From Chelativorans xinjiangensis (GTDB lineage Bacteria > Pseudomonadota > Alphaproteobacteria > Rhizobiales > Rhizobiaceae), in assembly GCF_009812055.1 (NCBI RefSeq), contig NZ_WQNH01000009.1, positions 62,001 through 126,000 of the forward strand: 64,000 bases of DNA, in the 5' to 3' direction. Shown here one piece after another: positions 37,595 through 57,559 of this stretch. Positions within the stretch are counted from its first letter, which is position 1. The number at the start of each line of letters is the position of its first letter. The notes under the pieces are model-generated. The model made no database searches and was not told where the DNA came from. It saw nothing but the letters and a program-made list of their open reading frames with translations. Made by a program: the position numbers and the translations under genes.

Positions 37595-37625
37595 GGGCTC
37601 GCAACGACCGATACCGACACTCGCT
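37595..37625 (+). repeat. 31-bp direct repeat, left copy flanking the catabolic cluster
   Basis: The 31 bases starting GGGCTCGCAAC match 57373-57403 at 29 of 31 positions (differences at positions 12 and 26 of the unit). The copies are in the same orientation and enclose the 20-kb cluster from the LysR gene to the GntR gene. Nothing else is seen in 37361-37663. Confidence 0.75.
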
Positions 37626-37663
37626 ATCCATATCGGTGTGAGATCGCCCATGCCCTACGCGGA

Positions 37664-38578
37664 TCAGGAATGATTGTGCTTCTGTAGTTCCTCGATCCGC
37701 CGTATCGCCTCCTTGCGGAAGATCGAGATGAACTCGTTAGTGTGCCGCGACGGCACCCGTTGCTTCGGCAGGATCGCCGACAGGTGCAGCCGCACACGCG
37801 GCTGGAACGGTCGGATTGCGAGGTCCGAGTAACGTCCGGTCGACACCGTCATCTCATCGAGCAACGCCGAGCCCCAGCCCTCCTGCACGAGCCGCGCCGC
37901 CACGTTGAGGAAGCGGACCTCGACGGAGGGGGAGTAGGGGGTAGACGCCTTGGCGAAGGCCTCCGCGATGAGCACGCCGATGCTGTTGCTCGTGTGCGGT
38001 GCGATCAGCGTCTGGTCGCGAAGGTCGGCCGGCGTGACGAAAGGTAATGTCGCCAGCGGACTGCCGGGCTGGCATACGCACGCGGTCGTCAGTTCCGCGA
38101 TCGGCCGCAGGGTGATGCCATGCTGGTCGTGCGCCTCCATGCCGAAGCCGACATCGGCGAGACCCATCTCGACGGCATCGAGCACGCTGGTCAGCGGCCT
38201 CGTGTCGAGCGAGAGATAGACCGACGGATGCGCTGTGAGGAACTTCCTGATCACGCTCGGAAGAATCGATTCCGAGAGCTCCGCGGTCGAGGCGACACGG
38301 ATACGGCCGATCCGGCCCGCGCGCAGATCGGCGGCACGCTGGTTGACCGCCTGCTGGTGCATGAACAGGGGCTCGGATTCCTCAAGCAGAATCTTCGCCT
38401 CCTCGGTCGGGACGAGCCGGTTGCTGACACGCTCGAAAAGCCTGAACCCGAGTTGGGATTCCATGTGCTTGATGGCGTTGCTGACGGCCGACTGCGACAT
38501 CGACAACTCCTCAGCCGCTGCGATGGTCGTGCGGAAGCGCATCACCGCGCTGAAAATCTCAAGCTGCCTGAGGTTCAT
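37664..38578 (-). CDS. LysR-family transcriptional regulator of the catabolic cluster
   Basis: A 304-residue regulator. The DNA-binding domain is MNLRQLEIFSAVMRFRTTIA, then SMSQSAVSNAIKHMESQLGF. The effector domain follows (IRVASTAELSESILPSVIRK). It is the last gene on the minus strand of a long co-directional run and probably senses a pathway intermediate. The DNA site is not evident. Confidence 0.9.
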   Translation of the reverse strand: MNLRQLEIFSAVMRFRTTIAAAEELSMSQSAVSNAIKHMESQLGFRLFERVSNRLVPTEEAKILLEESEPLFMHQQAVNQRAADLRAGRIGRIRVASTAELSESILPSVIRKFLTAHPSVYLSLDTRPLTSVLDAVEMGLADVGFGMEAHDQHGITLRPIAELTTACVCQPGSPLATLPFVTPADLRDQTLIAPHTSNSIGVLIAEAFAKASTPYSPSVEVRFLNVAARLVQEGWGSALLDEMTVSTGRYSDLAIRPFQPRVRLHLSAILPKQRVPSRHTNEFISIFRKEAIRRIEELQKHNHS

Positions 38579-38608
38579 GCCGGTTCTTGTAGCGCTATCG
38601 CGCCGGCC

Positions 38609-38911
38609 CTAGTCTGGCGACGCCGGGAGCGCGAGGGGTGAGAGGCGCAGTCGCTTGAAATTCGAGACATGGCTTTCAAAAGGTCCGAAACCCTTGATGG
38701 CATGAAATTCCGGCGTCTCATAGGCGTCCGAGCCGGTGATCTCGTAGACGGCAGCATATTTCGGCCCGCCCTCTACACAGACGTGGCGTTGCGCCGAGAG
38801 CCATCCCGGACAGGCGAGTATCTCGGGGATATGCACCGTCTCGTACCACTCGTTGAACGCGTCTTCGACCGCGGGGTCGACATCGACAAGGACAATGTGG
38901 AACTGCGACAT
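38609..38911 (-). CDS. Dimeric alpha-beta barrel protein (DUF4286-like)
   Basis: A 100-residue protein. MSQFHIVLVDVDPAVEDAFN and EWYETVHIPEILACPGWLSA show the pattern of small ferredoxin-fold enzymes of the EthD/DUF4286 type. HIPE is the usual active-site-like motif. Members take part in ring-cleavage or quinone metabolism, but many are uncharacterised. It sits 14 bp after the DHDPS-like gene and 30 bp before LysR. Confidence 0.7.
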   Translation of the reverse strand: MSQFHIVLVDVDPAVEDAFNEWYETVHIPEILACPGWLSAQRHVCVEGGPKYAAVYEITGSDAYETPEFHAIKGFGPFESHVSNFKRLRLSPLALPASPD

Positions 38912-38925
38912 CAGCTCGCCGGTCC

Positions 38926-39900
38926 CTATGCAAAAGCACCGGCGGCGATGAGCGCGTTGTGCAACTGCCCGATCTCCTCGTCCGACAGCGCGGCGATCGG
39001 GGAACGGGACGTCGCGGCGCCAAGCCGACCGAGCAGAACGAGGCACGTCTTTAGCCTCAAGGTCGCCAGGTGCCCCGGCACGCCGTACACGACGCGCGCC
39101 AGATCATAGAGCCTGTCATGGATCGCCCTTGCCTCGGCCAGATCGCCGCCCGCCACCGCCCGGTCGAGCGCGACAATCAGTTCCGGAACGACCGTTGCGA
39201 GGCTGACCAGGCTGCCCTCGCTGCCAATTGCGAAGCAAGCGAACAGATGTTCGTCGCCCGACGCCATCACGCCGACATCCGGGCGCAGACGCTTCGTCAG
39301 CCTACGGGTTAAGTCATAGGCCGCCGTCTCCCAGCTTCCCTCCTTGATGCCGATGACGCTCTCGATCTCGAGCAGGCCGGCGAGCGTGCGCGCCGAGAAT
39401 GCCGTCTTGCCCGCGCCGACCGCGCCCTGGAACAGAAACAGCGGCAGGCCCGAGGCGCGCGCCACCGCCCGGTGATGCTCCTGGATCACGCGCTCGTCGG
39501 CGCCGAGCGCCCAAGAGAAGGGCGGAAACACCATGACGGCGTCGGCGCCGGCGCGCGCCGCATCCTGCGCCAGAACCGCGGCGCGGTCGGTCCGCTCCAC
39601 GTTGATGCCGGCAACGATCCGTCGCGTTCCCGCGACCGCGCGGGCCACACGCACGACCAGCGCGAGCTCGTCGCGGTCGAGCGCGGCGTTCTCGCCGGCA
39701 TGGCCGTTGACGAGCAGCCCCGCCATGCCGTCGGTGCCGACGACATCGCCGAGATGGCGGGCGAGCATTTCCTCGTCGATGCAGCCGTCGGGGCGCATCG
39801 GACAGACCGTGGAGGCATAGACGCCGCCAAACGGGTGCGGTGCAGCGGACGCACGGGGGGCAGGCCTCTCGCCTGCAATTACGGAGTTGCGCAGGTTCAT
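38926..39900 (-). CDS. DHDPS/N-acetylneuraminate lyase family protein, divergent paralogue A
   Basis: A 324-residue TIM-barrel protein. The Schiff-base Lys is in SVIGIKEGSWETAAY. The usual GTTGE loop is LVNGHAGE, and the YNxP motif that supplies the catalytic Tyr reads LFLFQGAVGAG, so the Tyr is replaced. It therefore differs from real dihydrodipicolinate synthase and may be a pyruvate-type aldolase or hydratase-aldolase of the cluster. It overlaps the next paralogue by 4 bp. Confidence 0.85.
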   Translation of the reverse strand: MNLRNSVIAGERPAPRASAAPHPFGGVYASTVCPMRPDGCIDEEMLARHLGDVVGTDGMAGLLVNGHAGENAALDRDELALVVRVARAVAGTRRIVAGINVERTDRAAVLAQDAARAGADAVMVFPPFSWALGADERVIQEHHRAVARASGLPLFLFQGAVGAGKTAFSARTLAGLLEIESVIGIKEGSWETAAYDLTRRLTKRLRPDVGVMASGDEHLFACFAIGSEGSLVSLATVVPELIVALDRAVAGGDLAEARAIHDRLYDLARVVYGVPGHLATLRLKTCLVLLGRLGAATSRSPIAALSDEEIGQLHNALIAAGAFA

Positions 39901-40823
39901 CGTCTTAGCCCGCTTTCCTCGATCGCCGCCCGGACCAGGGTCTCGGCCTCCGCCGATGCCGGTATCAGCGGCAGGCGCGGCCGCGCATTGGCGATCACGC
40001 CCAGCGCCTTCAGGCCGACCTTGATACGCGTGTGCATGTCGATGATCGGCGCGGGACCGTAGATCGCCCGCACCGCCGGATGGAGCCTGTCGCTGGCCTT
40101 GCGCATGGCGGCGAGGTCGAACGCCTCCGCCGCCGTCCAGAGATCGGCGAGCCAGTGTGGGGTGAGGCTCGCCAGGCCGGACAGCAGCCCGTCCGCGCCG
40201 ACTGCGAGCTGCGGCAGAAACCAGTCGTAGTTGGAGGGCAGCATCGCCACGTCCGGCGCGGCAGCCCTGAGCGCCCGGAAATTCTCCTCATAGGCGAGCA
40301 TCATGTTGCTGCCCTCCTTGACCGCGATGACGCGCGGCAGCGCGGCGATGGCCGCGAGCACGCGCGTCGAATAGCCGAAACCCGAAGCGAGCGGGAACTG
40401 GAAGACCGAAGCCGGAATATTGACCGCCGCGGTCACCGCCTCGAAGAACGCGCGCGGTGCATCGGTCGCCGCCGCGCCGCCGCCGAGCGCAGCCGGCGGA
40501 AAGACCACGTAGCAGTCAGCGCCGGCCGCCTGCGCAGCCCTGGCCTGCGCGATCGCGTCGTCGACGCCGTGCGGAATCACCCCGGCGAGCAGCGGCTTGT
40601 CCTTCCCGATGAGTGCCCTCGTGCGGCGGATCACCTCGGACCGCTCCGCCTCGGAGAGCGACGTCGCCTCGCCGGCATGGCCGTTGACGAAGATGGCCGT
40701 CGCGGACCCGGAGCAGTAGGCGATGAGGTTCTCGTAGCCGCGCCAATCGATCGCGCCTGCGTCGTCGAAGGGAAGCACGGTCGCGACGGTGACGCCGCGC
40801 AGGTCGGAGGATGTCAGTGTCAT
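39897..40823 (-). CDS. DHDPS/N-acetylneuraminate lyase family protein, divergent paralogue B
   Basis: A 308-residue protein. The Lys motif is RVIAVKEGSNMMLAY, the loop is FVNGHAGEAT, and the Tyr position reads ASVFQFPLASG. It shares the NGHAGE loop and FQ replacement with paralogue A, so the two arose by duplication within this subgroup and may form a complex or act on related substrates. The start at 40823 is one base after the stop of the MaoC-like gene at 40825. Confidence 0.85.
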   Translation of the reverse strand: MTLTSSDLRGVTVATVLPFDDAGAIDWRGYENLIAYCSGSATAIFVNGHAGEATSLSEAERSEVIRRTRALIGKDKPLLAGVIPHGVDDAIAQARAAQAAGADCYVVFPPAALGGGAAATDAPRAFFEAVTAAVNIPASVFQFPLASGFGYSTRVLAAIAALPRVIAVKEGSNMMLAYEENFRALRAAAPDVAMLPSNYDWFLPQLAVGADGLLSGLASLTPHWLADLWTAAEAFDLAAMRKASDRLHPAVRAIYGPAPIIDMHTRIKVGLKALGVIANARPRLPLIPASAEAETLVRAAIEESGLRR

Positions 40824-40824
40824 G

Positions 40825-41256
40825 TCATTGAACTCTTGGTCGTGGATATTTGAGGGTGGCGCGCGCCTTGAGCACCTCCCTGCCCTCTTCGTTGACGGCC
40901 GAGGCTTCCCAGATGAGTGTGCGAGTCTCCTCGTCGCGCTCGGCGATCCAGACATGGATCGCGATGGTGTCGCCGTAGAAGACGGGGCCGGTGAACCAGA
41001 ACCGGTCCTCGATCGAGACGCCGAGCACGCCGGCGAGCTCGGCCGTCAGCACGCTCGTGCACAGGCCTGCGACCATGATGCCGGGTGCGAGGCGGCGGCC
41101 GAACCGCGTACCGGCGGCATAGGCCTCGTCGATGTGCACCGGCCCGAAATCGCCCGTCGCGGCGATGTAGAGCGCGCCGTCGGCCTCGGTCACGGTCTTG
41201 GTCACGACCGCCCTGTCGCCGACGTTCAGGTCGCTGAAGGGGATGACGTCATACAT
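40825..41256 (-). CDS. MaoC-like enoyl-CoA hydratase, catalytic subunit candidate
   Basis: A 143-residue hot-dog fold protein. TGDFGPVHIDEAYAAGTRFG holds the Asp-x4-His hydratase motif, and RLAPGIMVAGL the substrate-loop. It would add water to an enoyl-CoA. It is 12 bp after a second, shorter hot-dog gene that lacks the motif, suggesting an obligate pair. Confidence 0.85.
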   Translation of the reverse strand: MYDVIPFSDLNVGDRAVVTKTVTEADGALYIAATGDFGPVHIDEAYAAGTRFGRRLAPGIMVAGLCTSVLTAELAGVLGVSIEDRFWFTGPVFYGDTIAIHVWIAERDEETRTLIWEASAVNEEGREVLKARATLKYPRPRVQ

Positions 41257-41268
41257 CGCCCGACCTCC

Positions 41269-41673
41269 TCAGACCGGCTCCAGCCGCGCCTCGCCGGCCG
41301 TATAGGCGGCGCCGTCGGCGGTCATCGACAGCGCGCAGACGAAGCTCGCGCCCTGCCGCCCCGACACGGTCGCCGTCGCCTCGATGTTCGCGCCGACGGG
41401 GATCGCCCGGTCGAAGGCGAGGCTGACGGCGCCGATGCGGAAGCCGGGCCCGGCCAGCCGCGCCAGGCAGGTGGACAGGAGAGACGAGGCGGCCATCTCG
41501 AAGACGGCCATGTCAGCGAGCCCCGCCGCGCAGGCCCAGGTGCGGTCGACATAGAGGCCGCCCAGATTGCCGCTGATGCCGGTAAACATCGCCTGTTCGG
41601 CGACCGTCATCGTCTTGCGGAAGGTGACGCGGGCGCCGACCTTCGGCCCTTCGGATGGTGTCGCTGACGTCAT
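41269..41673 (-). CDS. MaoC-like protein lacking hydratase residues
   Basis: A 134-residue hot-dog fold protein. At the hydratase-motif position it reads TGISGNLGGLYVDRTWA, with Asn and Tyr where Asp and His are expected. It is probably non-catalytic or the structural partner of the MaoC protein encoded next to it, as in HadAB-type heterodimers. It lies between the acyl-CoA dehydrogenase (10 bp) and its partner (12 bp). Confidence 0.78.
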   Translation of the reverse strand: MTSATPSEGPKVGARVTFRKTMTVAEQAMFTGISGNLGGLYVDRTWACAAGLADMAVFEMAASSLLSTCLARLAGPGFRIGAVSLAFDRAIPVGANIEATATVSGRQGASFVCALSMTADGAAYTAGEARLEPV

Positions 41674-41683
41674 GATTTCGTCC

Positions 41684-42844
41684 TCACAGCGACAGGCCGT
41701 TGCGGATCACGCCGCGCGCGACCAGCATGCGGTGGATCTCGGAGGTCCCGTCATAGATGCGCGTCACGCGCGCGTCGCGGTAGATGCGTTCCAGCGGCAG
41801 TTCCTTGGTGAAGCCGTAGCCGCCGAAGACCTGGATGCCGCGGTCGGCGACGCGTCCGAGCGTCTCGGAGGCATGTACCTTGATCATCGACACCTTGTTG
41901 CGCGGGTCGAGCCCGGCGTCGATGTCGGCCGCGCAGTCGAGCACCATGCTGCGCGTGGCATAGATCTCGATCGCGGAGTCGGCGATCATCTGCTGGATCA
42001 TCTGGTAGTCGCCGATCGGCTGGCCGAACTGGCGGCGCGTAGCGGCGTGCTGGCGCATCATCTCCAGCACGCGCTGGGCCATGCCGGCGCAGCGGGCCCC
42101 TATATGGGCGAGCCGGATCGCCGAGACGCTCTGCATGATCAGCTTGAAGCCCTGGCCGACCTCGCCCAGCACCGCGTCACGGGGTATGCGGCAATCCTGG
42201 AAGACGAGTTCGGCATGGCCGTAACCCCGATGGCCCATCATCGGCTGCGTGCGGGCGACCGAGAAGCCGGGCGTGTCCCGGTCGACGAGGAAAAGCGTGA
42301 TGCCGCCGCGCGCGCGCTTTTCGGCGTCGGTCAGGGCCATGACGATGACGTAGTCGGCGATGTCGCCGTCGCTGATGAAGTGCTTGCTGCCGTCGAGCAC
42401 GAAGTGGTCGCCGTCGAGGCGCGCCGTGGTGGAGATCGAAGCGGCGTCGGAACCGGCGCCAGGCTCGGTGATGGCCATGGCGCAGATCAGGTCGCCGGCG
42501 ACCGTGGGCTTCAGGTAACGCTCGCGCTGGGCGGGATCGCAGGCCATCAGCATCGGATAGACTTGGCCGAAGATGCGCCGGATCAGCGCGTCGGAAGTCT
42601 GGCCGAGCTGTTCCTCGACCAGGCACATGTCGCGAGCGCCGAGACCGCCGCCGCCGACCTCGGCCGGCATGTTGAGAGCGTAGAGGCCGAGTGCGATCGC
42701 CTCCTGCTTGAGCGCCGCCAGCTTCTCCGGCGGGATACGGCCGAGCGCCTCGACCTCCATCTCCAGCGGTTGGACCTTGTCGCGGACGAAGCGGCGGACC
42801 GTCTCGACCACCATGCGGCATTCGTCGGTCGTCATCTGGGTCAT
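41684..42844 (-). CDS. Acyl-CoA dehydrogenase (cluster copy 1)
   Basis: A 386-residue FAD enzyme forming an enoyl-CoA. AMAITEPGAGSDAASISTTA is the flavin/substrate signature, and YGFTKELPLERIYRDARVTR the C-terminal one. At the common catalytic-Glu site the protein reads IYDGTSE, i.e. Asp for Glu, as in some CaiA-like members. It overlaps the CoA-transferase gene by 4 bp, so the two are probably made together. Electron acceptor (ETF) genes are not in the window. Confidence 0.9.
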   Translation of the reverse strand: MTQMTTDECRMVVETVRRFVRDKVQPLEMEVEALGRIPPEKLAALKQEAIALGLYALNMPAEVGGGGLGARDMCLVEEQLGQTSDALIRRIFGQVYPMLMACDPAQRERYLKPTVAGDLICAMAITEPGAGSDAASISTTARLDGDHFVLDGSKHFISDGDIADYVIVMALTDAEKRARGGITLFLVDRDTPGFSVARTQPMMGHRGYGHAELVFQDCRIPRDAVLGEVGQGFKLIMQSVSAIRLAHIGARCAGMAQRVLEMMRQHAATRRQFGQPIGDYQMIQQMIADSAIEIYATRSMVLDCAADIDAGLDPRNKVSMIKVHASETLGRVADRGIQVFGGYGFTKELPLERIYRDARVTRIYDGTSEIHRMLVARGVIRNGLSL

Positions 42845-44076
42845 CGGGCAACAGCCTCCCGTCGCGTCATGGTTTCGGCAGCCGCCTCCGGCGGTAGGCC
42901 GATCGCGCCTGCTGCCGCGAGCCGCGTGATCTCTTCGCCGGAGAATCCGGCCTCCGCGAACACCTCGCGCGTCTGCGCGCCAAGCGGCTGCGGCACGCGC
43001 GAGATGTCGGGCGCCGCGCCGTCGTAGCGGACGGGGTGGGCGACCAGCGTCACCGGCGCGCCGGTCGCGCCCTCGACGGTGCGGAACACCTGGAGATGAC
43101 GAAGCTGGGGATTGTCCGGGAGCGCGTCGTAGTCCTCGACCGGCGCGTTCCAGATGCCGCCGGCGTCGAGACGTGCGGCAGCCTCGGCGGTGCTCTGGCC
43201 AGCGAGCGCCTCGCCGACGAGGCGGTTAACCTCCTCGCGGCGGGAGAGACCGTCGCCCGCGGACATCGGCAGGAGCGCCTCGACACCGAGAGCCTTGCCG
43301 AGATCGGCCGGCGTCGCCATCGACACGGCGATGTGGCCGTCGGAGGTGGCATGGATGCCGTAGCCGCCGGCGCTGAACCAGCCGGCCACGCCGCCCGGAC
43401 CGCGCGGCGAGGAATGCGGTGCGCCGTTCATCCAGGCCGTGATCGGCTCGCCCTGGAGGTCGATCGCCGCCTGGAGCAGGTTCGCCTCGACGCGGCCGCC
43501 CTTGCCCGTCCGTTCACGCCGGTAGAGCGCGGTGACGATCCCGATGACCAGAAGCGCCGCCGTGTGGTGATCGATGACGACGGAACCGACCGCGACCGGG
43601 GGCCCCTCGGCCCTGCCGGTATGCGCGGCGAGGCCGGACATCGCCTGCAGCAGAAGGTCCTGTCCCGGCCGCGCGGCATACGGACCGTCGGACCCGTAGC
43701 CCGTCGCCGCCGCATAGATCAGGCGCGGATGCTCTTTGAGCAGAGCGTCCGGATCGAAGCCCAGCCGGGCCATGGTGCCGGGCCTGAAATTCTCCATCAC
43801 CACGTCGGCCGAGGCGATGAGACGGCGCACCGCCGCCCTGGCGTCGGGATGTTTGAGGTCCACGGCGACGCTGCGCTTGTTGCGCCCCGTCGAGAGGAAG
43901 TTGACGCTCTGCCCGTCGACATAGTGGCCGGCAACCGCCCAATTGCGCTGGAAGGCGCCTTCGAGCGGTTCGATCGCGATGACGTCGGCACCAAGATCGC
44001 CGAGGATCTGCGCCGCGGCGGGACCGGCGAGGAAGTGGTTGAAGCTGAGAACCCTGACGTCTCTGAGCGCGTCCAT
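42841..44076 (-). CDS. Class III CoA-transferase (CaiB/BaiF)
   Basis: About 411 residues. The catalytic Asp is in RPGQDLLLQAMSG, as in formyl-CoA transferase, in contrast to the racemase in region 1. NKRSVAVDLKHPDARAAVRR and ENFRPGTMARLGFD are family signatures. It would move CoA to a carboxylate taken up or formed in the pathway. I chose ATG 44076 (MDALRDVRVLSFN); an upstream codon at 44109 is possible. Confidence 0.9.
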   Translation of the reverse strand: MDALRDVRVLSFNHFLAGPAAAQILGDLGADVIAIEPLEGAFQRNWAVAGHYVDGQSVNFLSTGRNKRSVAVDLKHPDARAAVRRLIASADVVMENFRPGTMARLGFDPDALLKEHPRLIYAAATGYGSDGPYAARPGQDLLLQAMSGLAAHTGRAEGPPVAVGSVVIDHHTAALLVIGIVTALYRRERTGKGGRVEANLLQAAIDLQGEPITAWMNGAPHSSPRGPGGVAGWFSAGGYGIHATSDGHIAVSMATPADLGKALGVEALLPMSAGDGLSRREEVNRLVGEALAGQSTAEAAARLDAGGIWNAPVEDYDALPDNPQLRHLQVFRTVEGATGAPVTLVAHPVRYDGAAPDISRVPQPLGAQTREVFAEAGFSGEEITRLAAAGAIGLPPEAAAETMTRREAVAR

Positions 44077-44194
44077 CGCTGATGTCCCTATTTCGACCGA
44101 CCTTAACAAGCGGTCCGGAGCGGCATAAGTATCGAGACTTATGATGTTTCAGGCCTGATGTATTTGCTGTATGAATAGTCTCGAGAAGCCGGCG

Positions 44195-45601: not shown

Positions 45602-45633
45602 GGTTTCTGTTCCCCTGCCGGACATGGCATCTC

Positions 45634-49922: not shown

Positions 49923-50339
49923 TCATTCGACTTCCTCGAAGGTGATCGGCTGCGCACCTTTCCACAGCACCATGGTGCCGAGTTCGCGTAGCTTGTCCTG
50001 GCCCGACGTCAACGTGATGAAATGGTTGCCGGCGAGTTGTCCCATCTTCGAGGAGAAATCCACGCCGCCATAGGCGAGAAGGATTTCGGTTTCGCTGATG
50101 CCTCCGGGATAGAGGATGATCTGGCCGGGCGCCGGATGGCTGGTATGGTTCTCGTAGCCGACGCCGAAGTCGCGCTCGCCGAGCGGGATCCATATCCCCT
50201 CCCCGCTCCAGCGCACATGCACGATCTGGCCCGCGAACGGCATCGCCTTGCGGAATGCGGCCACGGTCTTGGGCGCATCCTCGGCCTCGAAGCGCGCGTC
50301 GAAGCGATAGGGGCCGGCGGTGACGATCAGCTTGGACAT
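49923..50339 (-). CDS. DUF3830 family protein
   Basis: A 138-residue protein resembling the DUF3830 cyclophilin-like fold: KTVAAFRKAMPFAGQIVHVR, then SGEGIWIPL and HPAPGQIILYPGGISETEIL. Genes of this family occur near TRAP and hydantoinase-type clusters, and their function is unknown. It lies between the second DctP and the DctQ gene. Confidence 0.8.
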   Translation of the reverse strand: MSKLIVTAGPYRFDARFEAEDAPKTVAAFRKAMPFAGQIVHVRWSGEGIWIPLGERDFGVGYENHTSHPAPGQIILYPGGISETEILLAYGGVDFSSKMGQLAGNHFITLTSGQDKLRELGTMVLWKGAQPITFEEVE

Positions 50340-50445: not shown

Positions 50446-51420
50446 TCATTTCGTCGACTTCAGCAGGTCGAGCAGCTTCTTTTGCTCGTCGGTGTCGACG
50501 TAGCTCGCATAGACCTTCTCGGCCTCGGCGCGGAACGGCGCGGCGTCGGGCCGTGTGACCTTGACGCCAGCGGCGATCAGATCGTCGTAGCGCTTCTGGT
50601 CGCTCTCGCGATAGGCCGCGCGCTGGAACAACGCCGCCTCGGTGCCGGCTTCGAGCAGGGCCTTCTGCATGTCCTCGGGCAGAGCCTTGAAGCGCTCCTC
50701 GCCCATGACGACGGGCGCGACGAGCTCGAGCCAGCCGAGGATCGCCCAGTTCGGCGCCACCTCGTAGAACTTCTTCGAGAAGTAGTTGGTGTTGGCGGCC
50801 TCGGCGCCGTCGACGACGCCAGTCTCCAGCGCGCCGTAGAGTTCGGCATAGGCGAGCGGGGTCGGATTGGCGCCGAAATTGCGGAAGGCCTCCAGATGGG
50901 CGGCGTTCTGCATGGTGCGGATCTTGAGGCCTGCGAGGTCAGCCATGCTCTCGACCGGCTTCTTGGTCATGATGTGCCGCGTGCCGGCCGAGAAGAAGCC
51001 GATCAGGCGGAAGCCCTTCTTGCCGAGCACTTGGTTGACGTAGTCGCGCACCTCCGGCGCGCTCAGCGCCTTGTCCATCTGTTCGGCGTTCTCGAACACG
51101 AAAGGCATGCTGAACACGCTCATCTCGGGCGCGAAGTTGACCAGCGTCTCGTTGGCAGTGATGGCGATGTCGATCGTGCCGAGCTGGGTGCCCTGGATGC
51201 TCTCCATCTCGTCGCCGAGCTGCGCGTTCGGGAACACGTGGATCTCGGCCTCGCCGCCGGTCTTCTCCTTGAGCAGCTCGCTCATCTTCAGCATGCCGAG
51301 ATGATAGGGCTCGTCCTGGTTGGCGTTGTGGCTGGCCTTGAGCGTGATCTCGGCGGCCACGGCCGGCGCGGCGATGGCGGCCGCGAGAAGCAGTCCCATG
51401 ATGGTCTTGATCGTTTTCAT
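50446..51420 (-). CDS. TRAP transporter substrate-binding protein DctP (copy 2)
   Basis: A 324-residue protein with signal peptide to AVAA (residue 23). LKIRTMQNAAHLEAFRNFGA and NPTPLAYAELYGALETGVVD match copy 1 at most positions. No second DctQM pair accompanies it, so it probably shares DctQM at 47714-49566. A second ligand specificity is possible. Confidence 0.93.
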   Translation of the reverse strand: MKTIKTIMGLLLAAAIAAPAVAAEITLKASHNANQDEPYHLGMLKMSELLKEKTGGEAEIHVFPNAQLGDEMESIQGTQLGTIDIAITANETLVNFAPEMSVFSMPFVFENAEQMDKALSAPEVRDYVNQVLGKKGFRLIGFFSAGTRHIMTKKPVESMADLAGLKIRTMQNAAHLEAFRNFGANPTPLAYAELYGALETGVVDGAEAANTNYFSKKFYEVAPNWAILGWLELVAPVVMGEERFKALPEDMQKALLEAGTEAALFQRAAYRESDQKRYDDLIAAGVKVTRPDAAPFRAEAEKVYASYVDTDEQKKLLDLLKSTK

Positions 51421-51495: not shown

Positions 51496-52383
51496 TCAGG
51501 GCTTTGCAAGAAGCCCCAGATCGGCGAGCACGGCGGCCAGGGGCGCGACGCGGCTTTCGGGCAGGGGCAGGCGCGGCGGGCGCGGCTCGCCCACCGGCAT
51601 GCCGGTCAGCCCCAGCGCGGCCTTGGTGGCGGAGACGTAGAGGTCGCCGGCGAGCGCCTCGAGCAGCGGCAGCACCTTGCGGTAGAGCGCGAGCCCTGCC
51701 TTCGCATCGCCCTCGTCCACCGTCAGCCGGAACAGTTCCGCCGACAGGCCGGGCGCGATGTTGGAGAACACGGAGACGTAGCCCTGCGCCCCGGCGAGAT
51801 AGCTTTCCCACGGGTGATAGCCGGCGAAGACCGTCATGCGCTCTTCGCACAGCCGCAGGATCTCGGTGACACGCGGCACGCTGCCGCTCGATTCCTTGAT
51901 GTAGGAGACGTTGTCGATCCCGGACAGCCGCGCGACGAAGGCGGCCTTGAGGTCGACATTGGCGGTGTTCGGATTGTTGTAGACCATCATCGGCACCGCG
52001 ATCGCCTCGGCGATGCGCTGGTAGTGGCGGAAGAGTTCGTCCTCGGTCGGCGAGGAATAATAGGGCGGCACCACCATGACGCCGTCGGCGCCGAGTTCCT
52101 CGGCCTCCCGGCTGAGCGCCACGGCCTCGTCGGTCCATTCGGCGGCCGTGCCTACCAGCACCGGCACGCGGCCCGCCGCCTGTTCGACGACGGTCGCCGC
52201 GACCATGCGGCGCTCGTCGCGCGTGAGGGACAGGAATTCGCCGGTGCTGCCGAGCGGGATCAGGCCGTGCACGCCGCCTTCGATCTGGGCGTCGACGAAG
52301 CGTCGCAGCGCCGCCTCGTCGACCCGCCCCTCGCTGTCGAAGGGCGTTACCATCACGGTATAGCTGCCACGGAACGTCGCCAT
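51496..52383 (-). CDS. DHDPS family protein with canonical motifs
   Basis: A 295-residue TIM-barrel lyase. It has the usual loop LGSTGEFLSL, Tyr in MMVYNNPNTANVD, and Schiff-base Lys in VSYIKESSGSV, so the catalytic set is complete, unlike the two paralogues at 38.9-40.8 kb. It could condense or cleave pyruvate-type aldols. ATG at 52383 is preferred to upstream codons in the operator region. Confidence 0.9.
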   Translation of the reverse strand: MATFRGSYTVMVTPFDSEGRVDEAALRRFVDAQIEGGVHGLIPLGSTGEFLSLTRDERRMVAATVVEQAAGRVPVLVGTAAEWTDEAVALSREAEELGADGVMVVPPYYSSPTEDELFRHYQRIAEAIAVPMMVYNNPNTANVDLKAAFVARLSGIDNVSYIKESSGSVPRVTEILRLCEERMTVFAGYHPWESYLAGAQGYVSVFSNIAPGLSAELFRLTVDEGDAKAGLALYRKVLPLLEALAGDLYVSATKAALGLTGMPVGEPRPPRLPLPESRVAPLAAVLADLGLLAKP

Positions 52384-52442
52384 GCGTCGTCTTCCCTTGC
52401 CTCGGCGTCCCGATCTATCTCGATCTAAATACGCCATATAAT

Positions 52443-52471
52443 GTTGACATTTGATCAGATTAAATGTCAAC
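52443..52471. promoter_or_regulatory. Palindromic operator candidate 1 of the cluster
   Basis: GTTGACATTT (52443-52452) and AAATGTCAAC (52462-52471) are exact reverse complements around a 9-bp spacer. The centre contains TTTGATCAGATT. It lies in the divergent region between the DHDPS gene (52383) and the tautomerase gene (52539), and suits a dimeric regulator, probably the GntR at 56391. Confidence 0.7.
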
Positions 52472-52538: not shown

Positions 52539-52907
52539 ATGCCATTTTTTGAGATTTTCGACTTTGCCGCGTCCACCAAGCAGCGCCGCCATGCCGCGAC
52601 GGCAATGACCGATGCGCTGTGCGCCGCCTACGGCATCGGACCCGAAATCGTATCCTCCTATTTCGTCGATGTAGGCGGTGACAGCTATGGCCACGACCGC
52701 AAATTCGGGCTGGAAACGTCGGAAAGGCGCATTTTCATTAAAGTTCATGCCTTCCGGCGATCGGCGGCGTTGCGGCGCGAGGCCGCCTTGTCGGTGACGC
52801 GAGCGGCAGCCGAGGCTTACGAGACAAACGAGAAGTCCATCGTTGTCTATTTCTTCGATCGCGAACCGGACGAAGTCGCACATGGCGGAACGCTGGGCGG
52901 CGGGTAG
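52539..52907 (+). CDS. Tautomerase-superfamily protein
   Basis: A 122-residue protein. After Met1 the chain starts PFFEIFDFA, giving the N-terminal Pro used as base by tautomerases once Met is removed. Two beta-alpha-beta units appear (residues 1-60 and 65-122; RRIFIKVHAFRRSAALRREA). It would isomerise an enol or dienol in the pathway. The ATG at 52539 is required by Pro-2; an earlier codon at 52524 is rejected. Confidence 0.78.
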   Translation: MPFFEIFDFAASTKQRRHAATAMTDALCAAYGIGPEIVSSYFVDVGGDSYGHDRKFGLETSERRIFIKVHAFRRSAALRREAALSVTRAAAEAYETNEKSIVVYFFDREPDEVAHGGTLGGG

Positions 52908-52936
52908 TCTTTCACGCCTCCGCCTAAGAAACTGAC

Positions 52937-52948
52937 ATTTGATCAAAT
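52937..52948. promoter_or_regulatory. Palindromic operator candidate 2 of the cluster
   Basis: ATTTGATCAAAT is a perfect 12-bp palindrome. The longer context TGACATTTGATCA is identical to bases 52445-52457 of operator candidate 1. It lies 34 bp before the second acyl-CoA dehydrogenase gene, so one regulator could control both sides. Confidence 0.7.
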
Positions 52949-52981
52949 TTTGTGCCACAGGCGCTTATCGAGAGTGCAAAG

Positions 52982-54124
52982 ATGGATCGGTTTTATTCAG
53001 AGGAACAACGCCTGCTTCGCGACAGCGTGCGGCGCCATGTTGAGGAAACGGTGATGCCGGCGGCCCAGGCCGTCGACCGCGACGACGTCTTTCCGCGCGC
53101 GCTCTACAGGGGCCTCGCCGGGCTCGGCCTGTTCGGCGTCTCGCTGGCGGAAGAGGCCGGCGGCAGCGGCCTCGACACGATTGCGGCCTGCATCGTCATG
53201 GAAGAGATCGCACGCGGCTCCGGGGCGCTCGGCAACGCCTACGCAATTCCCGTCGAGGCCGCCCTTCTCCTCAGCGAGCACGGCGGCGACTTCCACCGCG
53301 GCTTCATCCCCGGCATCCTGGCCGGCGACGTCATTCCGGCGACCGCCGCGACGGAGCCGGATTGCGGCTCCGACGTTGCGGCGATGCGCACCACGGCCGA
53401 TCGCGACGGCGACGACTACATCATCAACGGCGTCAAGGCCTGGGTCACCTTCGGCGGCGTCGCCGATTTCGTCATGGTCTTCGCCAAGACCGACCGCAAC
53501 GCCGGCCAGAAGGGCATAAGCTGTGTCCTCGTCGAGATGGACCGCCCCGGCGTCTCGCGCGGCAAGCACGAGGAGCTTCTCGGCATGCATGGCCTCGCCG
53601 ACTGCCAGATCGCCTTCGACGATGTGCGCGTTCCCGTTGCCAACCGCATCGGCCCCGAGAACGAGGCCTTCAAGATGGCGATGGCCAACTTCAACTTCTC
53701 GCGCCTCATGATGTCGTCCATGGCGCTGGGCATGGCTCAAGCGGCGATGGAGGACGCGGTCGCCTATGCCAAGTCGCGCCGGCAGTTCGGCTCGGAGATC
53801 ATCAAGTTCCAGGCGATCCAGTTCATGCTGGCCGACATGTCGAAGGACGTGGCGGCGGCCAGGCTCCTGATCCATCATGCCGCCCGCCTGCACGACGCCG
53901 GCTACCCAATCGCCAAGGAGGCGGCGCACGCCAAGCTGTTCACCACCGACATGGCCATGACCCACGTCTCCAACGCGCTGCAGATTCACGGCGGCAACGG
54001 CTACTCGAAGGAGTACCGCATCGAGCGCATCTTCCGCGACATAAGGCTGGCCCAGATCTACGAAGGCACCAACCAGATCCAGCGGCTGATCATCGCGCGC
54101 CAGCTCGAGAAGGAGTTCGCATGA
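52982..54124 (+). CDS. Acyl-CoA dehydrogenase (cluster copy 2)
   Basis: A 380-residue FAD enzyme. ATAATEPDCGSDVAAMRTTA and HGGNGYSKEYRIERIFRDIR are family signatures, and IYEGTNQ has the catalytic Glu. It is only distantly like copy 1. It overlaps the CoA-transferase gene by 4 bp, so activation and dehydrogenation are linked in this half as well. Confidence 0.92.
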   Translation: MDRFYSEEQRLLRDSVRRHVEETVMPAAQAVDRDDVFPRALYRGLAGLGLFGVSLAEEAGGSGLDTIAACIVMEEIARGSGALGNAYAIPVEAALLLSEHGGDFHRGFIPGILAGDVIPATAATEPDCGSDVAAMRTTADRDGDDYIINGVKAWVTFGGVADFVMVFAKTDRNAGQKGISCVLVEMDRPGVSRGKHEELLGMHGLADCQIAFDDVRVPVANRIGPENEAFKMAMANFNFSRLMMSSMALGMAQAAMEDAVAYAKSRRQFGSEIIKFQAIQFMLADMSKDVAAARLLIHHAARLHDAGYPIAKEAAHAKLFTTDMAMTHVSNALQIHGGNGYSKEYRIERIFRDIRLAQIYEGTNQIQRLIIARQLEKEFA

Positions 54125-55737
54125 GACAGCCGGGCAAGATCAGCCTCATCTCCGCCGCCGAGGCCGCCGCGCTGGTCAAGGCTGGCGACGTGCTCGCCGT
54201 GGGCGGCAATGGCGGCAGCGGCGTCCCCGAGACCGTGCTGGAAGCGCTCGAGCAGCGCTTCCTCGACAACGGCGGACCCGGCGGCCTGACGCTGCTGCAC
54301 GTGACCGGGATCGGCGCCGTCACCGAGCACGGGCTCTGCCGCCTCGCCCATCCGGGCCTCGTCGCCCGCGTCTTCGGCGGCAATTTTGGCCTCCAGATGC
54401 CCTTCATGAAACGTATCCGGACCGGCGAAATTGAGGGCTACAACTTTCCGCAGGGCGTGATGGCCCAGCTCTTCCGCGCCATGGCCGGCAAGCAGCCCGG
54501 CGTCATCACCCATGTCGGGCTAGGCACCTATATGGACCCGCGCCAGGACGGAGCGCGCATGAACGAACGCACCACTGAGCCGATGGTCGAGCTGGTCGAA
54601 CTCGCCGGCCGCGAATGGCTGTTCTACCGCGCGCCGACGCCGAGCGTTGCCTTCATCCGCGGCACCAGCGCCGACGAGGACGGCTATGTCTCGATGGAGC
54701 ACGAGGCAACCACGCGCGAGGACCTCTCGATTGCCCAGGCGGTTCACAATGCCGGCGGCATCGTGATCTGCCAGGTCAAGCGGCTGGTCAAACGCGGCAG
54801 CCAGAACCCGCACATGGTCAAGATCCCCGGCTTCCTGATCGACCATTTCGTGCTCGTTCCCGACCAGATGCAGACCTATGCGACGCAGTACGACCCCAGC
54901 CGCTGCGGCGAGACGACCATTCCCGTCTCCAGCCTGACGCCCGATCCGCTGACGGAGCGGCGCGTGATCGCGCGGCGCGGCGCCTTCCAACTCCGGTCCG
55001 GCGACGTGATCAATCTCGGCGTCGGCATCTCGGCGATGATCCCCAACGTCGTCGCCGAGGAGGGCATGGACGAGATGATGACGCTGACGGTGGAATCCGG
55101 CGTCGTCGGCGGCGTCCCCGGCTACGCGCGCGAGTTCGGCACGGCCTACAATCCGCGCGCCATCCTCGACCAGGCCTATCAGTTCGACTTCTACGACGGC
55201 GGCGGCTTGGACTGCGCCTTCCTGTCCTTCGCCGAGGTCGACGGCGACGGCAACGTCAACGTGACCCGCTTCGGCGACCGCTATGACGGCTCGGGCGGCT
55301 TCATCAACATCTCGCAGAACGCGAGGCGCCTCGTGTTCAGCGGTTCGCTCACCGGCGGCGGGCTCGATGTCGCGGTCGAGAGCGGCCGCCTCGCCATCCG
55401 CAGCGAGGGCAAGTTCCGCAAGTTCGTGCCGGATGTCGGCCAGGTCAGCTTCAACGGCAGGCTGGCCCGCGAGCGCGGACAGGACGTCATCTACATCACC
55501 GAGCGCGCCGTCTTCCGGCTGGAGGCCGACGGCCTCGCGCTCGCCGAGATCGCGCCCGGCGTCAGGCTGAAGGAAGACGTGATCGACCAGGTCGGCTTCC
55601 CGCTGCGCGTCGACCCCGGCGTGAAGCTCATGGATCCGCGCATCTTCCGGCCGGGGCCGATGGGCCTGAGAGAGGACATTCTGGACGGCGCGGTCGGCGG
55701 AACCGGACCGGCGCTGCGCCTGGTGGGAGAACGCTGA
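54121..55737 (+). CDS. Acyl-CoA:acetate/3-ketoacid CoA-transferase (class I)
   Basis: A 538-residue single-chain class I CoA-transferase of the propionate CoA-transferase/YdiF type with fused alpha and beta parts. GDVLAVGGNGGSGVPE near the N-terminus is the CoA loop, and LTVESGVVGGVP holds the catalytic Glu of the ExG motif. It moves CoA from an acyl-CoA to a carboxylic acid. It overlaps the neighbours by 4 and 1 bp. Confidence 0.93.
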   Translation: MRQPGKISLISAAEAAALVKAGDVLAVGGNGGSGVPETVLEALEQRFLDNGGPGGLTLLHVTGIGAVTEHGLCRLAHPGLVARVFGGNFGLQMPFMKRIRTGEIEGYNFPQGVMAQLFRAMAGKQPGVITHVGLGTYMDPRQDGARMNERTTEPMVELVELAGREWLFYRAPTPSVAFIRGTSADEDGYVSMEHEATTREDLSIAQAVHNAGGIVICQVKRLVKRGSQNPHMVKIPGFLIDHFVLVPDQMQTYATQYDPSRCGETTIPVSSLTPDPLTERRVIARRGAFQLRSGDVINLGVGISAMIPNVVAEEGMDEMMTLTVESGVVGGVPGYAREFGTAYNPRAILDQAYQFDFYDGGGLDCAFLSFAEVDGDGNVNVTRFGDRYDGSGGFINISQNARRLVFSGSLTGGGLDVAVESGRLAIRSEGKFRKFVPDVGQVSFNGRLARERGQDVIYITERAVFRLEADGLALAEIAPGVRLKEDVIDQVGFPLRVDPGVKLMDPRIFRPGPMGLREDILDGAVGGTGPALRLVGER

Positions 55738-56219
55738 TGCAGTCGAGACCGCACGAGGAACTGGTGGACCTCTGCTACGAGGACGTGATCGTCGGCGAGG
55801 AAGTGATCACCGACAGTCACACGGTGACCTGGGAGGACGTGCAGTCCTTCGCCGCGCTCACCCGCGACCGCCATCCCCTGCACACGGATGCCGACTATTG
55901 CAGCCGCACCGCCTTCGGGCGGCCGATCGCGCATGGCCTCTACGGTGTGGCGCTGATCGAAGGGCTGAAGGCCGAACTGAAACTCTACCAGAACACCTCG
56001 ATCGCTTCGCTCGGCTGGGACAAGGTGCGCTTCAGGGCGCCCATCTTCCCCGGCGACACGCTTCATGTTCACGTGCGTTTCGCGAGCAAGCGCGAAAGCC
56101 AGAGCGGGCCGCACGGAATCGTTGTCGAACGGATCGAGATGCTGAATCAGCAAGGCATGGTCGTGATCGATGCGGAACACGCGGCCATGCTGGTGAAGCG
56201 CGCCGGGTCCATCGCTTGA
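55737..56219 (+). CDS. MaoC-family hydratase
   Basis: A 160-residue hot-dog hydratase. TRDRHPLHTDADYCSRTAFG includes the Asp-x4-His motif and FGRPIAHGLYGVAL the HG-L loop. It would hydrate the enoyl-CoA made by the adjacent dehydrogenase. The ATG shares a base with the CoA-transferase stop. Confidence 0.9.
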   Translation: MQSRPHEELVDLCYEDVIVGEEVITDSHTVTWEDVQSFAALTRDRHPLHTDADYCSRTAFGRPIAHGLYGVALIEGLKAELKLYQNTSIASLGWDKVRFRAPIFPGDTLHVHVRFASKRESQSGPHGIVVERIEMLNQQGMVVIDAEHAAMLVKRAGSIA

Positions 56220-56390
56220 ACCGGGTGGCCGCCTCTGGCACACAGGAATCGGTCTAGGGTCTGGCCCCGTAATAGGGCCAGACCCAAGTCCACGATGCGC
56301 GAATGGGGAGAGAAGGACGGCCATGAAAAGCGGATCGAGTTGCAACACCTGCGGCGGCCCTTCAGTCAACGGTGGCGGCCGGATACGCTC

Positions 56391-57101
56391 ATGAGCGGAA
56401 ACAACCGACGCGTCCGGACGAACGGCGGCCGCGACGCTGCTGTAGCGGACGAACTTTCCTCGACCTCGGTCGAGCAGGCGACGGCGATGATCCGCCAGGC
56501 GATCCTTTCCGGCCGCTACGGCCCCGGCGAGCGGATCAAGGTGGCGGACCTTTCCAATCAGTTCGGCTTCAGCCCGATGCCACTGCGCGAGGCTCTGCGC
56601 AAGCTGGAAGGCGAAGGGTTGGTCGAGGTGGAGCCGAACAGGGGCGCGATCGCACGCCGGCTTGATCGCCGCTTCGTCGAGGACCTGTTCGAGCTCAACA
56701 CCGAGTTGCGCATCTTCGCGCTCAGGCGCGGGCTGAAAGCGATGACCATGGATCGGCTGGATGAGCTGGAACGGATTGCGCAGGGTTATCAGGAAGCCGT
56801 CGACCGTGAGGAATTCGAGACAGGACTCGGACTCAACCGCGAATTCAACGAAAAGCTCGTCGAGACCGGCGGCAACTCCGAGGCGCTGCGCGTCTTCCAG
56901 CGCGGCTGGGAAATGATCAGCGCCTTCCGCCGCCGCTACGGCTATCGCGCGGGGCGCCAGCAGGGACAGGCACGCGAAAACCGCATGCTGGTCGATGCCC
57001 TTCGCCGCCAGGATCTGCAACTCGCCGAGGCGCTGCTGCGCATGCAGCACGCGGCGGCGGTCGAGGACCTGATCGACCGCCTGGAGGGCCAGGACGGCTG
57101 A
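56391..57101 (+). CDS. GntR-family (FCD) transcriptional regulator
   Basis: A 236-residue regulator. The winged helix includes MIRQAILSGRYGPGERIKVA and GFSPMPLREALRKLEGEGLV, followed by an FCD-type helical effector domain of about 140 residues. The operators at 52443-52471 and 52937-52948 are its likely targets. It ends the plus-strand half of the cluster. ATG at 56391 is preferred over 56295. Confidence 0.9.
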   Translation: MSGNNRRVRTNGGRDAAVADELSSTSVEQATAMIRQAILSGRYGPGERIKVADLSNQFGFSPMPLREALRKLEGEGLVEVEPNRGAIARRLDRRFVEDLFELNTELRIFALRRGLKAMTMDRLDELERIAQGYQEAVDREEFETGLGLNREFNEKLVETGGNSEALRVFQRGWEMISAFRRRYGYRAGRQQGQARENRMLVDALRRQDLQLAEALLRMQHAAAVEDLIDRLEGQDG

Positions 57102-57559
57102 CGCCAAGTCGGTCGGCTGCGGCAGTCAATCAGATCCGCCCAATGCCGGCTCAGCACAATACGCCAATCGTCGTGCTGCAGATCCGCGATGCTCGCAGAC
57201 GGCCCGCTCAAGCGATCCTCACGCTCACTTCCGCCGGCGCGCAATTGGGGGTGTTACGCGATGACTTTAACCTCCCGCGCAAGCGATCAATCTCATTGAG
57301 GTCGAGCGCAGACGCGAAAATAATTCCGGAAAATATTGAAATAGCGTATCTATTTCTGAAGCTTGGTTGCGGGGGCTCGCAACTACCGATACCGACATTC
57401 GCTGGTGGTTCCTGTGTGACGACCTAAGCGTTCGAGAACAGCCCGGTGGTTGTTTCCTTTACGCGTTCTTTATGCGCAGAAGCAGCCTTCCCTATGGCGC
57501 CCTTACGTCCCTCCCGCAGCGCCACCTATCGGGCCGACATCCACCAAAGGAGTCGGCTC
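57102..57559. other. Gene-free boundary region
   Basis: No supported gene. It contains the right 31-bp direct repeat and, at 57366-57383, GTTGCGGGGGCTCGCAAC, whose ends pair. Confidence 0.5.
57373..57403 (+). repeat. 31-bp direct repeat, right copy flanking the catabolic cluster
   Basis: Matches 37595-37625 at 29 of 31 bases in the same orientation. It sits between the GntR gene and the kdp remnant. Confidence 0.75.

Follow-up and report, generated by a model that had tools for sequence, protein, structure and literature searches.

Background

Hydantoin utilisation comprises a racemase, a hydantoinase and a carbamoylase. The locus analysed here resembles it in a ring opening of the D-hydantoinase family, represented by a protein (HYD) above two curated NCBIfam cut-offs (Table 1); no carbamoylase or racemase Pfam family was identified among its 21 proteins, and CoA enzymes are present instead. 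Reductive pyrimidine catabolism uses dihydropyrimidine dehydrogenase, a dihydropyrimidinase-family enzyme and ureidopropionase. The dihydropyrimidinase-family enzyme is common to the locus, whereas the families of the other two are absent from the 21 proteins.

In caprolactam degradation by Pseudomonas jessenii a cyclic amide is opened by caprolactamase, an ATP-dependent oxoprolinase-type pair, followed by a proposed CoA-transferase (an oxalate CoA-transferase homologue) and an acyl-CoA dehydrogenase (PMC6061476). The likeness lies in the opening of a cyclic amide followed by these two CoA enzymes; a TRAP importer, DHDPS-family proteins, a MaoC pair and DUF6282, all present in our locus, do not appear in the part of that account examined. 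A caprolactam-type ring opener was discarded, HYD being Amidohydro_1 and no oxoprolinase family being matched in the island. As the initial annotation had supposed, no described pathway with this gene set was found in the literature searched, judged by titles and abstract openings, and the names DUF6282 and DUF3830 retrieved no papers. At that level the cyclic-amide literature deals mostly with cyclic amidohydrolases, and work on fungal nicotinate breakdown mentions cyclic imides.

The locus is a 20-kb block (about 37595-57403) of the window, the whole stretch of 64,000 nucleotides analysed. Sequence comparison suggests a horizontally acquired island in which two modules belonging to a single CoA-dependent pathway have been joined; its substrate would be an acidic ring amide, with a cyclic ureide as the likeliest case. 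We give this reading about an even chance.

Gene content of the island

Import and catabolic genes were assigned to Pfam and NCBIfam families by profile search, with 21 island proteins scanned against Pfam (Table 1). By its sequence the block is a mosaic of two joined catabolic modules: the left extends from LysR to DctQ (37664-49566) and the right comprises DctP2, DHDPS3, the tautomerase-like protein, ACAD2, the class I CoA-transferase, MaoC3 and GntR. Every gene class named in the initial annotation was recovered, the tautomerase by homology. The DUF3830 and DUF4286 genes are members missing from its list, unless DUF4286 was its tautomerase.

Table 1. Features of the island and its borders in window coordinates
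Feature	Position	Strand	Basis and remarks
Repeat, left copy, dispersed family	37592..37625	+	Repeat comparison
LysR regulator, left module	37664..38578	-	Pfam; 79-89% over part present in L038-L040 (loci end inside gene)
DUF4286-like small protein	38609..38911	-	PF14114 26.1 bits, cut-off 25.8 (longer ORF); 64-78% in L038-L040; aligned with four others
DHDPS1	38926..39900	-	Pfam, motifs; NGHAGE, Schiff-base Lys motif kept
DHDPS2	39897..40823	-	Pfam, motifs; NGHAGE, Schiff-base Lys motif kept
MaoC1 hot-dog hydratase	40825..41256	-	Pfam, motif; GDFGPVHID intact
MaoC2 hot-dog	41269..41673	-	Pfam 21.9 bits, below cut-off 27; GNLGGLYVD (Asp/His replaced)
ACAD1	41684..42844	-	Pfam, motif; Asp at usual Glu base
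CaiB/BaiF (class III) CoA-transferase	42841..44076	-	Pfam
Hydantoinase/dihydropyrimidinase (HYD)	44195..45625	-	NF009941 735.8 (cut-off 647), TIGR02033 519.1 (393.25); motifs
DUF6282, amidohydrolase-type TIM barrel (predicted)	45634..46617	-	PF19799; AlphaFold model pLDDT 89.7; Foldseek lactonase/PTE/dipeptidase
DctP1, TRAP binding protein	46688..47662	-	Pfam/NCBIfam
DctM, TRAP large permease	47714..48994	-	Pfam/NCBIfam
DctQ, TRAP small permease	48991..49566	-	Pfam/NCBIfam
DUF3830, at module junction	49923..50339	-	PF12903
DctP2, second TRAP binding protein, right module	50446..51420	-	Pfam/NCBIfam; 59% on Thioclava p2, 48% in L100
DHDPS3	51496..52470	-	Pfam, motif; canonical GSTGE; start possibly 52383
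Operator-like 25-bp inverted repeat, site 1	52445..52469	.	Sequence
Tautomerase-like protein	52539..52907	+	41% to L119 gene
Operator-like site 2	52933..52957	.	20/24 positions as in site 1
ACAD2	52982..54124	+	Pfam, motif; Glu base kept
Class I CoA-transferase, FadX-like (below FadX cut-off)	54121..55737	+	Profile match; 71-72% in G035 and G183
MaoC3 hot-dog hydratase	55737..56219	+	Pfam, motif
GntR/FCD regulator	56295..57101	+	Pfam; 53% on Thioclava p2; start possibly 56391
Repeat, right copy, dispersed family	57370..57403	+	Repeat comparison

The TRAP set is formed by DctP1, DctM and DctQ in the left module and DctP2 in the right. As DctP2, DctQ and DctM lie together on Thioclava p2 and in genome G183, DctP2 is most simply read as a remnant of an importer that the right module would have had of its own. 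Relatives in the PDB gave many distant matches to the TRAP proteins, none pointing to a ligand. DUF3830, found between DUF6282 and HYD in loci L038-L040 and L044, gave no significant PDB match (3kop, E 0.081). The tautomerase-like protein has no Pfam match; it shares 48 of 117 residues with its positional counterpart on a Thioclava plasmid (L119), and the Comamonadaceae counterpart (L118) reaches 20.5 bits against PF01361 (cut-off 22).

The operator consensus was taken from site 1; after site 2, the next best place in the window matches at 14 positions. The core ATTTGATCAAAT, with at most one mismatch, gave 2 matches against 0.08 expected, for a pattern chosen after the sites had been seen. 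No such site was found in seven other loci (best 16/24).

CoA enzymes and DHDPS-family proteins

ACAD1 carries Asp in place of the normal Glu base in 9 of 9 sequences. It is rare: at E<=1e-145 a match was obtained in three of 385 genomes of the class and two of 398 of the phylum, its own genome being included in both. MaoC2, one of three MaoC hot-dogs, is without the catalytic Asp and His in six of eight sequences (that of L118 retains the His), and is possibly a non-catalytic partner of MaoC1 in a heterodimer. Enzymes of the mesaconate/ethylmalonyl-CoA type were rejected because MaoC3 (PF19315, 24.5 against 26.5) and CaiB (NF041294, 162.6 against 700) miss the curated cut-offs.

DHDPS1 and DHDPS2 have NGHAGE in place of GSTGE and fall below the DapA cut-off (TIGR00674, 206.15) with 97.3 and 110, whereas DHDPS3 narrowly exceeds it (211.1). 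The retro-aldol cleavage of the initial annotation fits DHDPS3 best, the other two being without the canonical motif. The HpcH/HpaI aldolase of the relatives is missing from the window (best in the own genome, 32%), so the island pathway may differ from theirs.

Relatives and distribution

The 14 genes of the left module were all identified, in synteny and with 58-89% identity, in three of the eight named loci (L038-L040). Parts of the right module (DHDPS3, tautomerase-like, ACAD2, CoA-transferase, MaoC3 and GntR) recur with or without the TRAP importer. An 8-Mb genome (G035) and a Comamonadaceae plasmid each combine enzymes of both modules, and Thioclava GXIMD2076 has them on two plasmids; the modules therefore probably form one pathway. 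A point against it is that the TRAP, DUF6282, DUF3830 and GntR proteins had no match in the stretches searched of G035 and the Comamonadaceae plasmid. The recurrence of its parts in distant bacteria, in the same order or regrouped, makes the island look more like an undescribed pathway than a random gathering of genes. The search for the same gene order elsewhere, proposed at the outset, was thus successful in L038-L040, with parts in other genomes. Of the idea of one catabolic island, the catabolic nature was supported and the unity was not, the modules occurring elsewhere both apart and together. By the DUF6282 marker (E<=1e-50) the island is absent from 15 of 15 congeners.

Two separate pathways may instead adjoin, TRAP-HYD-DUF6282-DHDPS1 serving a cyclic amide and CoA-transferase/ACAD/MaoC/DHDPS an unrelated acid. 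Salinarimonas ramus (L044) has the ring-opening part without CaiB, ACAD or MaoC, showing that HYD and the CoA steps can be separate. In Thioclava the CoA modules lie on two plasmids with HYD homologues far away (p3, 49%, about 130 kb from the module; p2, 44%, about 64 kb), and G183 contains ACAD2-CoAT-MaoC3 and TRAP with no HYD match on its 14-kb contig. Against this, HYD stands inside a string with CaiB, ACAD1 and MaoC in L038-L040, and G035 has it clustered with them. We regard two pathways as possible, if on the unlikely side.

Every genome or record containing module parts (7 of 7) has a HYD homologue, which tests little because genes of this kind are widespread (76 plasmid records). The HYD adjoining the module enzymes on the Comamonadaceae plasmid is only about 40% identical, and another there 47%; that of G586 (55%) is about 16 kb away and has one internal stop codon. 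DUF6282 also occurs in clusters among L048-L058, with DAO, an FAD/[2Fe-2S] oxidoreductase (both presumably opine-oxidase-like) and an amino-acid-type ABC importer. Most contain a DHDPS1-like gene, and L050 and L058 a HYD at 70-75%; unlike the island, they had nothing matching ACAD, CaiB or MaoC at E<=1e-10.

The ring-opening part and its substrate

The HYD motifs DSHVH, SFKVFMTY, CSPPPR and PNGIPGV, which we take to be metal- and ring-binding, are kept in the window and in five relatives. The probable reaction of the enzyme is ring opening of a cyclic ureide or a comparable amide. Around HYD relatives at 68-72%, ureide-type genes lie within about 8 kb in three of four annotated plasmid contexts (Asp/Glu racemases in one, ureidoglycolate lyase and asparaginase in another, N-carbamoyl-D-amino-acid hydrolase in the third) and none in the remaining one. 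Ureidoglycolate lyase (PF04115, above cut-off) is also present in L118 and L116, two relatives bearing ACAD1; in the source genome its single copy lies on C34 and not in the window.

DUF6282 corresponds to the second amidohydrolase-like protein of the initial annotation. No PDB sequence matched it; by Foldseek its model is closest to a PTE-like lactonase (E 1.2e-7, TM 0.52-0.53, rmsd 7.5), with further matches to dipeptidase, TatD and NagA, and the predicted fold is a TIM barrel of the amidohydrolase superfamily. Residues D30, H32, H34, H177 and D270, invariant in 18 sequences, are candidate metal ligands.

This fold would also suit a lactam or plain cyclic imide, with ammonia released by DUF6282 or another amidase and the dicarboxylate oxidised through CoA. 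Such a reading keeps the single pathway and differs in substrate. The region upstream of the G035 cluster agrees with it, containing an amidase-like gene, recognised by eye, and a molybdenum hydroxylase represented by partial sequence (PF01315/PF02738); so does the best NCBIfam match of CaiB, succinate-glutarate CoA-transferase, far under its cut-off (175.2 against 750). Genes for ureidoglycolate lyase, carbamoylase and racemase in the neighbourhood of relatives favour ureides, and we consider a lactam or imide rather unlikely.

Borders and origin

The initial annotation described 31-bp direct repeats closing the block. The pair exists, with 31 of 34 positions identical and, over 37595-37625, 29 of 31 rather than all. 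It does not close a unit: at up to three mismatches the 5.69-Mb genome contains seven forward matches, the island pair included (control pattern, 0), and congeners have copies too, which rules out private island ends and leaves a dispersed family. At the genome density a 20-kb stretch should contain about 0.025 copies, so two around the block exceed chance. Copies lie near IS3-like genes in L005 and L104, as judged by eye, and close to the start of contigs in L001, L002 and L006; no mechanism emerged from these neighbourhoods.

Congeners share the DNA of the left flank up to about 34335 and, in patches, as far as about 35541; the right flank matches G298 from about 58379. The foreign stretch may therefore be larger than 37595-57403. 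A clean empty site was not found in congeners, the left and right matches of G298 being on different contigs. The recombinase beside the island is partial (54 of 102 positions of PF07508), and G309 matches part of this left-flank gene at 67%. The GC content is 0.604 in the left flank, 0.666 and 0.655 in the left and right modules, 0.631 in the right flank and 0.646 in window 1-32299, with 2-kb windows reaching 0.70 at 42-44 kb; GC is a weak mark of foreign origin here. Insertion at a tRNA was discarded, the only one of the window being at 25584, also the only Rfam match there at gathering thresholds.

A recombination remnant that has decayed and no longer functions would agree with the repeats, the partial recombinase, the missing HpcH and the displaced DUF3830, and is highly improbable given intact ORFs, operon-like overlaps and conserved active-site motifs.

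Proposed pathway

Genes exist for each step class of the initial annotation (import, ring opening, CoA activation, dehydrogenation, hydration and lyase). For the single CoA-dependent pathway, we infer the substrate class, order of steps, MaoC1/MaoC2 heterodimer and regulation as follows. Import of the substrate would fall to the TRAP system and its binding proteins DctP1 and DctP2, HYD would open the ring, giving a ureido or amido acid, and DUF6282 may hydrolyse a second amide, carbamoyl or lactone bond. CaiB would form the CoA thioester from an acyl-CoA donor, ACAD1 would dehydrogenate it, the MaoC1/MaoC2 heterodimer would hydrate the product, and DHDPS1 and DHDPS2 would act on it as Schiff-base lyases. 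The right module (class I CoA-transferase, ACAD2 and MaoC3) would repeat activation, dehydrogenation and hydration on the remaining acid, with DHDPS3 cleaving a 2-oxo acid at the end. LysR would control the left module, and GntR would control the right through the two predicted 25-bp operators.

A more speculative version, which we think doubtful, has urea removed whole by a beta-oxidation-like route, CoA chemistry replacing the carbamoylase. The ureido acid made by HYD would become a CoA thioester and the Asp-base ACAD1 would convert it to an enamide; the MaoC1/MaoC2 dimer would add water at the nitrogen-bearing carbon, and the carbinolamine would yield urea and an oxo-acyl-CoA, spontaneously or via the ureidoglycolate-lyase homologue where present.

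The gene set of the island is apparently undescribed; it is rare among the sampled genomes, partly plasmid-borne and shared between Alpha- and Betaproteobacteria. It provides a context for DUF6282, DUF3830, DUF4286, DHDPS-like proteins without the usual motif and an Asp-base acyl-CoA dehydrogenase. The block seems to confer import and breakdown of a small nitrogen-ring compound and, if the ureide reading is true, this would be a CoA-dependent use of cyclic ureides.

Gene content and putative regulation

The 20 island proteins classified by Pfam and NCBIfam scans bear out the gene block of the initial annotation. MaoC2 scored below the Pfam cut-off, DUF4286 barely above it, and the tautomerase-like protein had no match in the Pfam scan. 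Neighbouring genes overlap or almost abut (42841/42844, 48991/48994, 39897/39900 and 45625/45634), an operon-like arrangement.

Features of the island and its borders (window positions)
Feature	Position	Strand	Basis or remark
LysR, DUF4286, DHDPS1, DHDPS2, MaoC1, MaoC2, ACAD1, CaiB		minus	Pfam/NCBIfam
Hydantoinase, DUF6282, DctP1, DctM, DctQ, DUF3830, DctP2, DHDPS3		minus	Pfam/NCBIfam
ACAD2, class I CoA-transferase, MaoC3, GntR		plus	Pfam/NCBIfam
Tautomerase-like gene	52539-52907
Inverted repeat (first operator-like site)	52445		25 bp
Second operator-like site	52933
Serine recombinase	35890-37194		directly outside left repeat
KdpF-like peptides, Trans_reg_C domain	57530-58306
Tandem duplication	59438-59816		189 bp, 99% identical
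Match to own contig start C1	58379-58516		93%
Match to own contig start C70	60470-60662		87%

The inverted repeat is situated between DHDPS3 and the divergently oriented tautomerase gene, and the second site, identical to it at 20 of 24 positions, directly precedes ACAD2; elsewhere in the window no place scores above 14 against the first. Their 12-bp core, picked after the sites were seen, matches twice where 0.08 matches would be expected. A scan of seven other loci did not recover the site (best 16/24), nor was it found upstream of the left module (LysR to DctQ), and it therefore links only the two right-module operons. The GntR/FCD protein at the operon end would likely bind both putative sites.

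The left module in other genomes

Genome contigs were scanned for DUF6282, giving eight named loci. The search for the same gene order elsewhere, proposed in the initial annotation, was successful for the left module: three of the eight, L038 (Salinarimonadaceae MAG), L039 (Aquamicrobium sp. LC103) and L040 (Rhodobacteraceae HLUCCA09), contain 14 window genes (LysR to DctQ and DUF3830) in one order at 58-89% identity, LysR being truncated by the locus end in each. These clusters differ from the window in a second CaiB (class III CoA-transferase) and in DUF3830 placed before the hydantoinase. An HpcH/HpaI aldolase gene was identified by Pfam after DUF6282 in L039; a gene of the same cluster is present in L041, a similar translation (read by eye) in L038, and a gap of corresponding size in L040 and L044. 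The window lacks this aldolase at the corresponding place, the best match in its own genome being 32%. L044 (Salinarimonas ramus) comprises only TRAP, DUF6282, DUF3830, hydantoinase, DHDPS1 and LysR; L041, TRAP, DUF6282 and a 49% DHDPS1-like gene; L042, a 5.9-kb contig, ACAD1, MaoC1, MaoC2, two weak MaoC3-like genes and DUF6282; and L043 and L045, DUF6282 only.

A further cluster type, of which no description was found, comprises L048-L058, with DUF6282, mostly a DHDPS1-like gene, and often genes for DAO, an FAD/[2Fe-2S] oxidoreductase and an amino-acid-type ABC importer. Two tandem DUF6282 genes adjoin a peptide-type ABC importer in a Qingshengfaniella plasmid (L121, 10938-12945).

The right module and the co-occurrence of both

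The class I CoA-transferase was identified at 71-72% in two of 297 genomes of the order besides our own (G035 and G183), the next best being about 50%. G183 contains MaoC3-CoA-transferase-ACAD2 with its own TRAP, and its best DHDPS3 match is 31%. G035 contains, in one cluster, the hydantoinase (77%), MaoC3-CoA-transferase-ACAD2, DHDPS3-CaiB-ACAD1-MaoC2-MaoC1-DHDPS2-DUF4286 and a 47% DHDPS1; an Asp/Glu-racemase/AMDase-like gene adjoins the hydantoinase, a molybdenum hydroxylase lies farther upstream, and the TRAP, DUF6282, DUF3830 and GntR proteins were unmatched within the 50 kb searched. On the Comamonadaceae OTU4NAUVB1 plasmid, the CoA enzymes of both modules are accompanied by DHDPS1, DHDPS3, a 37% DHDPS2, HpcH, ureidoglycolate lyase and a hydantoinase at 39-40%, with no TRAP, DUF6282, DUF3830 or GntR match in the stretch searched. 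Thioclava GXIMD2076 presents CaiB-ACAD1-MaoC2-MaoC1-DHDPS2-DUF4286 on p3 and TRAP-DHDPS3-tautomerase-ACAD2-CoA-transferase-MaoC3-GntR-DHDPS2 on p2; a further Thioclava record pair gave matching hits at search level. G586 contains ACAD1, DHDPS2, DUF4286, CaiB (40%), LysR and ureidoglycolate lyase. ACAD1 is rare, identified at E<=1e-145 in 3 of 385 genomes of the class and 2 of 398 of the phylum (the window's genome counted in both) and at E<=1e-100 in 5 of 72,556 plasmid records.

Given this distribution, DctP2 (the second TRAP binding protein) would most simply be a remnant of an importer proper to the right module, and the two modules are either one pathway or two pathways frequently combined.

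Substrate class and active sites

The hydantoinase exceeds both curated NCBIfam cut-offs. It has 76 plasmid relatives, and five among the 30 listed were examined, one being a record without annotation. Of the other four, three lie within about 8 kb of ureide-type genes (Asp/Glu racemases; ureidoglycolate lyase and asparaginase; N-carbamoyl-D-amino-acid hydrolase and Zn hydrolase) and the fourth has none. Together, cut-offs and neighbours favour a cyclic ureide as the probable substrate. Pfam/NCBIfam scans of the island proteins identified no carbamoylase family member. Hydantoinase homologues (E<=1e-60) in all seven genomes or records with module parts are weak support, since they are often distant from the modules and genes of this kind are common.

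For the motifs, the comparison covered the window and those relatives in 11 loci whose tblastn match reached 45% identity or more; weaker relatives were excluded. In ACAD1 the base position holds Asp (9/9), which aligns opposite the Glu of two solved acyl-CoA dehydrogenases; Glu at this position is the base in these enzymes, and ACAD2 retains it in 4/4. MaoC1 retains GDFGPVH[IV]D in 8/8. MaoC2 presents GNLGGLYVD in 6/8; the motif loss is not universal, since L118 (the Comamonadaceae plasmid locus) and L042 did not match this pattern, L118 having GNMAPLHVD (Asp lost, His retained). NGHAGE is found in DHDPS1 (7/7) and DHDPS2 (8/8), all with the Lys motif except L117 DHDPS2, and GSTGE in DHDPS3 (4/4). 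The predicted DUF6282 model (pLDDT 89.7) has its best Foldseek matches in lactonase/phosphotriesterase, dipeptidase and TatD-like proteins (TM about 0.5, rmsd 5-8 for most); all 18 sequences compared have D30, H32, H34, H177 and D270.

Repeats, borders and nature of the island

The flanking repeats, identical at 31/34 positions, had been taken to close the island. They are members of a dispersed family with seven forward matches in the 5.69-Mb genome, the island pair counted (control pattern, 0), and also matched in congeners. Near one congener copy (G301, L101, 5652) lies a LysR/ADH pair similar to the window's left flank, one of two such places in that genome, which lacks DUF6282 throughout at E<=1e-50. 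Another congener copy (L104, near 5104) lies downstream of genes that look IS3-like by eye, at a distance of about 1.2 kb.

Among 16 genomes of the genus, only the one that contains the window has the island by the DUF6282 marker (E<=1e-50). Left-flank DNA is common to congeners up to about 34335, with patches up to about 35541, and G309 has a 67% match across part of the recombinase gene; right-flank DNA is common to G298 from about 58379 onward. Sharing thus stops outside the repeats, and the foreign stretch may be larger than the repeat-bounded block. An empty site was not demonstrated in G298, because its two flanks are on different contigs.

The serine recombinase, with a nearly full-length Resolvase domain and 54/102 positions of the Recombinase domain, is possibly a relic. 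On the right, the short KdpF-like peptides (by eye) precede the C-terminal domain of a response regulator, an arrangement resembling a kdp locus without its middle. The tandem duplication lies within a TrkH-like gene, and G298 carries the stretch once; the duplication may be genuine or an error of assembly. The C1 and C70 matches suggest that the Trk region is present in a second copy.

Neither DUF6282 nor DUF3830 is named in the literature searched and, as the initial annotation held, no described pathway has this gene set in the parts of the literature covered, among the matches listed. Closest in logic, in the portion covered, is caprolactam degradation (PMC6061476), whose ring opener is unrelated to that of the island. 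We infer both the substrate and the order of steps. The catabolic gene set is real and transferable, apparently undescribed, and a mosaic of two modules describes it better than a unit that repeats of its own would close.
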